From the NCBI GenBank assembly GCA_013519935.1, contig JACDUA010000001.1:27982-91981 (forward strand): 64,000 nucleotides of DNA, in the 5' to 3' direction. Of this stretch, positions 5,247 to 50,815 are shown piece after piece (the first letter of the stretch is position 1; every line of letters starts with the position of its first letter). Both the position numbers and the translations under genes were made by a program. The stretch is from Ectothiorhodospiraceae bacterium WFHF3C12. GTDB lineage: Bacteria; Pseudomonadota; Gammaproteobacteria; Nitrococcales; Nitrococcaceae. Below the pieces are notes generated by a model. It was given only the letters and a program-made list of their open reading frames with translations. It had not been told where the DNA came from and did no database searches.

Positions 5247-5933
5247 ATGAGCAGCAACACGGTTCGTTTCGACCCAGCACGTGCCGCGCTGCTGGTGGTC
5301 GACGTCCAGCCGGATTTCATGGAGGGCGGCGCGCTGGCCGCTCAGGAAGGCAGCGCGGTGGTCGAGCCCATTCGCCGTTTCATGGAGGCCGGCCATTTCG
5401 GGCTGTACGTGGCCACCCAGGACTGGCACCCGGCCGGTCACATCTCCTTCGCCAGCGAACATGCCGGGCGGGAGCCGTTCGAGGTCATCGACCTCTACGG
5501 CCACGACCAGGTCCTGTGGCCGGACCACTGCGTACAGGGCAGCGACAACGCCGCGTTGCACACCGGGCTACCCTTGAAGCTGTTCTCGGCGATCATCCGC
5601 AAGGGCGAGGACCCGAAGGTCGATTCCTACAGCGGCTTCAAGAACAACTGGAACGCCGAAGGCGAGCGGCCGCCCACCGGGCTCGCGGGCTACCTGCGCG
5701 AGCGCGGCATAACGGATGTCTTCACCTGCGGCCTGGCGCGGGATTTCTGCGTCAAGTGGACCGCGGAGGACGCCGCGGACGAGGGCTTTCGCACCTGGTA
5801 CCTGTGGGACCTGACCCGGCCCGTGGACGAGAACGCCGACGATGACGTGCGCAAGGCCCTGACGGACAAGGGCGTGAGCATCATCGACAGCACGGACGTG
5901 GAAGCCGCGCCGGCGGCGCGCAGCGCCGGATAA
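5247..5933 (+). CDS. pncA: Nicotinamidase/pyrazinamidase PncA
   Basis: 228 aa isochorismatase-fold amidohydrolase. The catalytic triad is visible: Asp in VVDVQPDFMEGGAL, Lys in IRKGEDPKVDSYSGF, and the nucleophilic Cys in FTCGLARDFCVKWTA. The metal site is in TQDWHPAGHISF. It deamidates nicotinamide to nicotinate for NAD salvage in the cytoplasm. It is monocistronic, with a strong intrinsic terminator about 30 bp after the stop. Confidence 0.93.
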   Translation: MSSNTVRFDPARAALLVVDVQPDFMEGGALAAQEGSAVVEPIRRFMEAGHFGLYVATQDWHPAGHISFASEHAGREPFEVIDLYGHDQVLWPDHCVQGSDNAALHTGLPLKLFSAIIRKGEDPKVDSYSGFKNNWNAEGERPPTGLAGYLRERGITDVFTCGLARDFCVKWTAEDAADEGFRTWYLWDLTRPVDENADDDVRKALTDKGVSIIDSTDVEAAPAARSAG

Positions 5934-5961: not shown

Positions 5962-5990
5962 AGGCCCCGTTATCGGGGCCTTTCTTTTCT
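5962..5990 (+). terminator. Rho-independent terminator after pncA
   Basis: Stem AGGCCCCG / CGGGGCCT with a TTAT loop (5962-5981), followed by a T-rich tail (TTTCTTTTCT). It lies 28 bp after the pncA stop. Confidence 0.85.
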
Positions 5991-6002
5991 TAAAAGCGCG
6001 AG

Positions 6003-6165
6003 TTTAGCCACAGATGAACACGGATGGACACAGATCCTTTGGGGTAGTACGCCGCACTTCTTACTTTCAGGCGTAGGAAAAACCTCTACGTCCCGACATC
6101 AGGTACACCGCCACAGCGACTGATGAGCAATTATCTGCGTCCATCCGTGTTCATCTGTGGCTAAA
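6003..6165. repeat. 163-bp element with 33-bp near-perfect terminal inverted repeats
   Basis: The left arm 6003-6035 (begins TTTAGCCACAGATGAACAC) is the reverse complement of the right arm 6133-6165 at 32 of 33 positions, with 97 bp between them. No ORF of note lies inside. No clear target duplication is visible at the edges. The right arm ends 12 bp before the prfC stop codon, so the structure could also end prfC transcription. The arm sequence resembles short intergenic repeats I have seen in other bacteria, but this is recollection, not a search. Confidence 0.8.
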
Positions 6166-6177
6166 AAGAGCAGTACG

Positions 6178-7758
<1,581 letters not shown>

Positions 7759-50486: not shown

Positions 50487-50815
50487 GGCCCCGCATTCTA
50501 ATCGAACTGCCCCGCCTACAGAACCTGGCAGGCCCTGAACGGTCCGCGCGGTATCACGCCGCAGTTTCGGTGTTGAGCCGTTCCCACGGGCCCCGGCGCT
50601 CAAGCAAACGCTGAACGATTCCCGCGAGCCTGCGCGGGTCAGGACACGGCCCTGGCTGCATCCGCGCCGTGCGGCCAGAGGCACGCGCGAATTGTTCGGC
50701 GTTTGCTTAATGTACAATCGGCGCAGGGGCACACACCGGCACGAGCACTCGACGGGTGCCGGGCGACAGGGACATTCGCTATCCACCAGGGCCGGGCGAT
50801 CGGGATTTACATTCC
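50487..50815. other. 329-bp divergent region between cysM and gacS
   Basis: Holds a 25-bp inverted repeat pair (50602-50626 and 50684-50708) and a possible gacS promoter: TTGTTC (50692-50697) and TACAAT (50713-50718), with a short 15-bp spacer. No gene was recognised. Confidence 0.55.
50602..50708. repeat. 25-bp inverted repeat with a 57-base spacer upstream of gacS
   Basis: Arms 50602-50626 (AAGCAAACGCTGAACGATTC...) and 50684-50708 match as inverted copies at 22 of 25 positions. The right arm overlaps the putative -35 of gacS. The two arms are about 82 bp apart centre to centre, a spacing that would suit two operator sites. Confidence 0.75.

Follow-up and report, generated by a model that had tools for sequence, protein, structure and literature searches.

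In the window, i.e., the whole stretch of 64,000 nucleotides that was analysed, an element of 163 bp (6003–6165) is located between the convergent genes pncA (stop codon at 5931–5933) and prfC (stop codon at 6178–6180). It consists of a left arm of 33 nt on the forward strand (6003–6035), a core of 97 nt (6036–6132), and a right arm on the reverse strand (6133–6165), which is an inverted copy of the left arm with 32 of 33 positions complementary (97%). The left arm reads TTTAGCCACAGATGAACACGGATGGACACAGAT, i.e., TTTA followed by the three units GCCACAGAT, GAACACGGAT, and GGACACAGAT, spaced one helical turn apart. The core is gene-less, does not include the GTAG-REP motif present in many other cores, and has no other match in the genome, where only the arms are found elsewhere. 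The arms form the longest inverted pair of the whole window. The second-longest pair, at 50602–50708 (30 nt, 87%; spacer of 47 nt), is unrelated to the element in sequence. The element strand is predicted to fold into one long stem, both as RNA (-78.6 kcal/mol; z -9.2) and as DNA (-47.5; z -9.9), and the Rfam search revealed no significant family. The 33-bp inverted ends and the capacity to form a long hairpin, as described in the original prediction, are thus both confirmed. A terminator-like hairpin with a T-run, read from the sequence as that of pncA, directly precedes the element at 5962–5991 (forward strand). The element itself does not qualify as an intrinsic terminator, which has a short GC-rich stem and a T-run, since it has instead a 33-bp stem with a 97-nt loop, and the hairpin at 5962–5991 is separate from it.

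When the window was searched with a 25-nt arm core, allowing up to 3 mismatches, the two matches were the element's own arms (0.00 expected from shuffles). The statement that there is no second copy therefore holds for the window. It does not hold for the 4.6-Mb genome, in which a 19-nt arm core, with up to 2 mismatches, was found 61 times in forward and 62 times in reverse orientation (123 matches; 0 with the reversed-pattern control). These matches almost always occur as inward-facing pairs. By rule, 58 inverted pairs were cut out, all of 117–731 bp except one of 1488 bp, and the family comprises about 60–70 inverted pairs genome-wide. Several arms are unpaired, and for these either a weaker partner is present or a contig end is nearby; the genome is a 168-contig draft, and many assemblies of the relatives are drafts as well.

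The arm consensus, built from 116 arms of 58 pairs, includes three helically phased units of ~10 nt per arm with the sequence ACRCnGATnR. In each unit, ACRC-GAT is fixed, while the position just ahead of GAT and the two positions separating the units are free, and an arm is not itself a palindrome. As judged from the sequences, this pattern suggests that it is the phased units that are recognised, and not pairing alone. The arms of one pair differ at 4.95 positions per 29 nt, and those of different pairs at 4.87, with 1379 of 2000 permutations giving a value as low (p about 0.7). No homogenisation of arms within pairs was thus seen. Arms that share a pair resemble each other no more closely than arms taken from different pairs do, so the arms are held to one shared consensus.

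The G+C content of the cores is equal to that of the flanks. Descent of the cores from one ancestral core was considered and is unsupported in this genome, as the segments that cores have in common belong mostly to a second, REP-like repeat. This GTAG-REP-like motif (GTAGGAGCG/GTGGGAGCG), a member of a previously known family (PMC3733652), occurs at 5.2 per kb inside the elements (cores of L064–L111) and at 0.29 per kb outside, an 18-fold difference. With simple ORF calling, one of about 57 elements is located within an ORF, while the rest are intergenic, and the median distance from element to gene end is 16–21 nt; among 47 classified elements, 22 have convergent genes on either side. The target duplication that had been expected at the insertion was not found, in that no k or offset exceeded shuffled pairings among the 58 elements, a test which is weak for old copies. 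No autonomous IS with the ends of the element was seen among the arm pairs of this draft assembly, and the arm sequence was not found in E. coli genomes. In one element the core contains an IS110-family transposase gene (L065, 45–1562), and the left arm has five units, not three. IS110 was considered as the parent of the family and rejected, as it is an insertion in one core.

In four relatives of the same family, the pncA-prfC locus is without the element. The stop-to-stop spacing is 244 bp here, 23 bp in G003, G015, and G017, and 0 in G010. The earlier reading of a small, non-autonomous mobile or dispersed repeat is supported by this empty locus and by the genome-wide copies of the arm. An arm unique in the genome, at a locus conserved in relatives, had been proposed as the sign of a gene-specific structure; both halves were examined and neither held. 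Evidence of occupied and empty sites was also obtained in the genus of G303. At the guaB-guaA and hisC-pheA junctions, G303 has an element with AGAT-type arms, G193 a different element with CGAAT-type arms, and G595 none. Two other element sites are common to G303 and G193 (86–88% identity), so that some copies are older than the split of these species. In the same two genomes (L383–L415), AGAT-armed hairpins are nested in a larger repeat of ~330 nt with CGAAT-type arms.

A gene-bearing partner of the element, an addition beyond the original prediction, was found in this genome. The only gene of the GxxExxY family (PF13366/TIGR04256; 128 aa) is located at C167:6665–7006, between arms at 6612 and 7057. 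This element (L116, 1113–1557) has the same arms as the gene-less copies of the genome, and an in-frame ATG of the gene forms part of the left arm (ATGAACACGGAT = MNTD). In a collection of 80 GxxExxY loci, found with a single protein as query and representing many bacterial and archaeal phyla, inverted arms are present within 300 nt in 68. The 68 arm-bracketed elements are 407–712 bp long (median 470), and the stop codon is a median of 10 bp from the right arm. An in-frame ATG is located in the left arm in 43 of 68 elements, a biased count, since the N-terminus encoded by the arm was included in one search peptide. In independent searches for the family, using an inverted-repeat score of at least 14, arms were detected in 26/29 loci of the class (shifted windows, 1/112) and in 23/29 of the phylum (shifted windows, 0/108). 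DUF559 was first picked as the control and PF05635 as an alternative cargo; as both proved to have arms of their own, UPF0102, another small PD-(D/E)XK family, then served as the true control, and inverted arms were present in 2/29 of its loci. In general, GxxExxY arms include about three units of 8–10 nt with the sequence CRCnRA[T/G/A]. The full-length form of the family is one gene, encoding GxxExxY, a minimal RecB/Cas4-like nuclease, tightly packed between the arms. The element from Betaproteobacterium GR16-43 (L255), with nearly identical arms of 64 nt (score 55), is, judging by its sequence, a good candidate for a recent copy.

Among 49 GxxExxY sequences, the residues D75, E85, K87, and Q99 are invariant and Y103 is conserved in at least 90%. 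This D / ExK / QxxxY set, recognised by alignment, corresponds to that of the RecB- and Cas4-like PD-(D/E)XK nucleases. The best PDB matches of the structure model (pLDDT 93) in Foldseek were LHK-Exo and Cas4 SSO0001 (TM 0.5–0.57 to the query), with lower matches to AddAB, MGME1, and a Holliday-junction resolvase; for a predicted model, TM-scores of 0.4–0.57 point to a shared fold class, not a shared family. A search by sequence found no relatives with a solved structure. GxxExxY shares both fold and motif with the RecB/Cas4/lambda-exonuclease group, but it is half the size, has no known partner, and is encoded within repeat arms. Assignment to a phage or defence family was rejected, as there was no match in PHROGs or PADLOC. 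Between G193 and G303, dN/dS is 0.18 for the GAT-armed copy, with dS near saturation, and 0.09 for the other copy, values which indicate that the protein is kept by selection.

Outside the subfamily of this element, the arm units include CACAGAG, CGCCAAG, CGCAAAG, CACGAAG, and CACGGAA. With the unit type scored as AT, AG, or AA, only 3 changes are needed on a protein tree of about 120 labelled loci, a tree which rests on few alignment columns. As arms and gene are physically linked, this agreement shows that they are inherited as one unit. By itself, it is no proof of recognition, as it could reflect simple linkage. Given the match between unit type and protein type, the arms present a simple DNA-binding code for testing. 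The exact arm is present in six genomes of the class, four of which have a GAT-armed GxxExxY gene (G000, G193, G303, and G064). The remaining two have orphan arms, G120 with no GxxExxY gene and G270 with a GxxExxY gene of another arm type. All three many-copy genomes carry the gene with matching arms. Any PF13366 gene accompanies the arm in 5/6 genomes, vs. 42/274 (hypergeometric p about 4e-4, computed by hand and ignoring relatedness).

On balance, we consider it probable that the sequence at 6003–6165 represents a non-autonomous foldback (hairpin) element belonging to a GxxExxY-linked family, with the GxxExxY nuclease as its putative mobiliser. The gene-bearing form, which occurs in many phyla and has the nuclease gene between ends of this kind, suggests that GxxExxY drives an undescribed kind of mobile DNA. 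The protein would read the phased units of the arms, act on the extruded hairpin or foldback, and cut DNA. Host repair would then place a copy of the hairpin, bounded by its arms, at another intergenic position, with a preference for the 3' end of a gene. Gene-less copies would be served in trans, and their cores would be dispensable, free to decay or to take in other elements. Such a mechanism explains why arms are shared while cores have decayed, why arms pair inwards, and why gene and arms form a unit; the joining step is left unaccounted for, and a nuclease of 128 aa with no joining or polymerase activity cannot alone explain insertion. Two observations count against this reading, i.e., the lack of a target-site duplication and cores that, unlike those of a standard MITE, differ between copies. 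The orphan arms of G120 and G270, without a matching gene, count against the role of GxxExxY.

The same orphan arms speak for an alternative in which GxxExxY is only cargo, or a selfish homing nuclease within the element, and another enzyme (e.g., a DDE transposase) moves the arms as MITE ends. GxxExxY itself explains neither the missing duplication nor the joining, and a draft assembly with some arms at contig ends may miss IS copies. MITEs of DDE-type IS are likewise short, gene-less, intergenic, and present in many copies with terminal inverted repeats, but they differ from the present family, in which no target-site duplication was detected, the cores are unrelated, and no parent IS with these ends was found among the arm pairs of the draft assembly. 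Moreover, in most loci the gene enclosed by the arms is GxxExxY itself, in elements of a size that leaves no space for another gene, and arm type follows GxxExxY type. The sole transposase within arms is the inserted IS110, and none of the six Y1 transposase genes of the genome is bracketed by these arms. We therefore regard a cargo role as rather unlikely, though of the alternatives it is the one to be taken most seriously. It is improbable that the hairpins are host elements with a task at gene ends (termination, protection of mRNA 3' ends, or DNA topology) that were spread by gene conversion. While a stable predicted stem, the many copies next to the 3' end of a gene or flanked by convergent genes, and the two orthologous sites kept between two species would fit such a task, pncA already has its terminator-like hairpin ahead of the element, the pncA-prfC locus is empty in relatives, the arm consensus exceeds what pairing needs, and such arms bracket a nuclease gene across phyla.

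Some known systems come close in layout. In the REPIN/REPtron system, a chromosomal enzyme gene is flanked by inverted repeats and accompanied by many short, gene-less, intergenic hairpins (PMC3116915, PMC3733652). The GxxExxY family likewise has one enzyme gene and many gene-less intergenic hairpins, and both RAYT-like genes and GTAG-type REP motifs are present in the genome. However, GxxExxY is a PD-(D/E)XK nuclease, whereas the REPIN enzyme (RAYT) is an IS200/IS605-like transposase of the HUH/Y1 type, and the three phased units of ~10 nt with cores that vary from copy to copy differ from the GTAG/CGTC-tagged palindrome of 20–40 nt that defines a REP. The GTAG REPs of this genome are a separate family, located inside many cores, and RAYT was rejected as the partner enzyme because no Y1 gene has the arms around it. 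The element thus resembles REPIN/REPtron in its working, but membership fails on both enzyme and repeat, and mobilisation as a REPIN by a RAYT (Y1 tyrosine) transposase is very improbable. In TIRtrons, Y1 genes (TIRYT) are bracketed by long TIRs which also form small dispersed families; these are only moderately abundant and occur in few genomes (PMC3733652). The likeness lies in a gene bracketed by repeats that also form dispersed families, and the enzyme class and arm design differ. We give equally little credence to an excisable element similar to an IVS, in which RNase III would remove the transcribed hairpin and thereby permit insertion into transcripts. In the 23S rRNA IVS with S23p (PF05635), too, a small gene is enclosed by inverted arms built of short tandem units, and heptamer units have been reported for the Coxiella IVS (PMC4990558). 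The S23p fold, however, is unrelated, and the IVS is located in rRNA, whereas the GxxExxY elements are intergenic with the single exception noted above, and none has been shown in rRNA. Identity of the present element with a 23S rRNA IVS was rejected, as it lies between pncA and prfC.

Two other gene families are bracketed by arms of their own. Among PF05635 genes (four-helix '23S_rRNA_IVP'; L257–L286, class sample), inverted arms are present in 20/29 loci and have a strict period of 7 nt (self-match 0.80 at lag 7 and 0.84 at lag 14; 20 loci), which fits the Coxiella heptamers (PMC4990558). DUF559 (PF04480) genes (L287–L316; own copy L310) are bracketed by inverted arms of the CCCTCTCCC...GGGAGAGGG type; 23/30 loci score for arms, and 13/17 scored arms are palindromic. 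Arms of this type also occur alone in the genome, within the cores of L080 and L091. We tentatively propose, as a possibility that falls somewhat short of being probable, that the GxxExxY, four-helix 'IVP', and DUF559 genes are engines of very small mobile elements in prokaryotes, which fall into three unrelated and convergent classes. Each class would have its own arm grammar (phased units of 8–10 nt, units of 7 nt, and CCCTCTCCC-type palindromes, respectively), occur in distant lineages, and seed gene-less hairpins. Gene-less dispersed copies are established for the GxxExxY type at least.

GxxExxY, four-helix S23/IVP, and DUF559 are widespread small families lacking a known job, and the location of their genes between arms gives each a testable role. 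This location also accounts for a large group of intergenic 'mystery' repeats (CCACAGATGAACACAGAT, CACAGAGGCACAGAG, CGCCAAG, and others). If the proposal is correct, a stand-alone PD-(D/E)XK nuclease would move DNA by reading the foldback arms of its own element, a so far undescribed mode of mobility, and a small nuclease would join the enzymes that shape bacterial intergenic DNA. Within the literature covered, with most subscription papers and preprints outside its scope, we found no function for PF13366/TIGR04256, no report of the arm sequence, nothing pairing such elements with PD-(D/E)XK nucleases, and nothing linking DUF559 to inverted repeats; an earlier description of GxxExxY-arm elements may exist.

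Arm-bracketed elements were also observed in plasmid records. The AGAT and CGAAT types are present side by side on a Thiodictyon plasmid (L425). Two 'plasmids' of Bacteroides finegoldii (L424 and L426; PLSDB NZ_OY725952.1 and NZ_OY725930.1) have the look of chromosomal contigs entered as plasmids, with radA, carA, and carB among their genes. In these, a GxxExxY element is located behind radA, and arm-like units are present between carB and carA.
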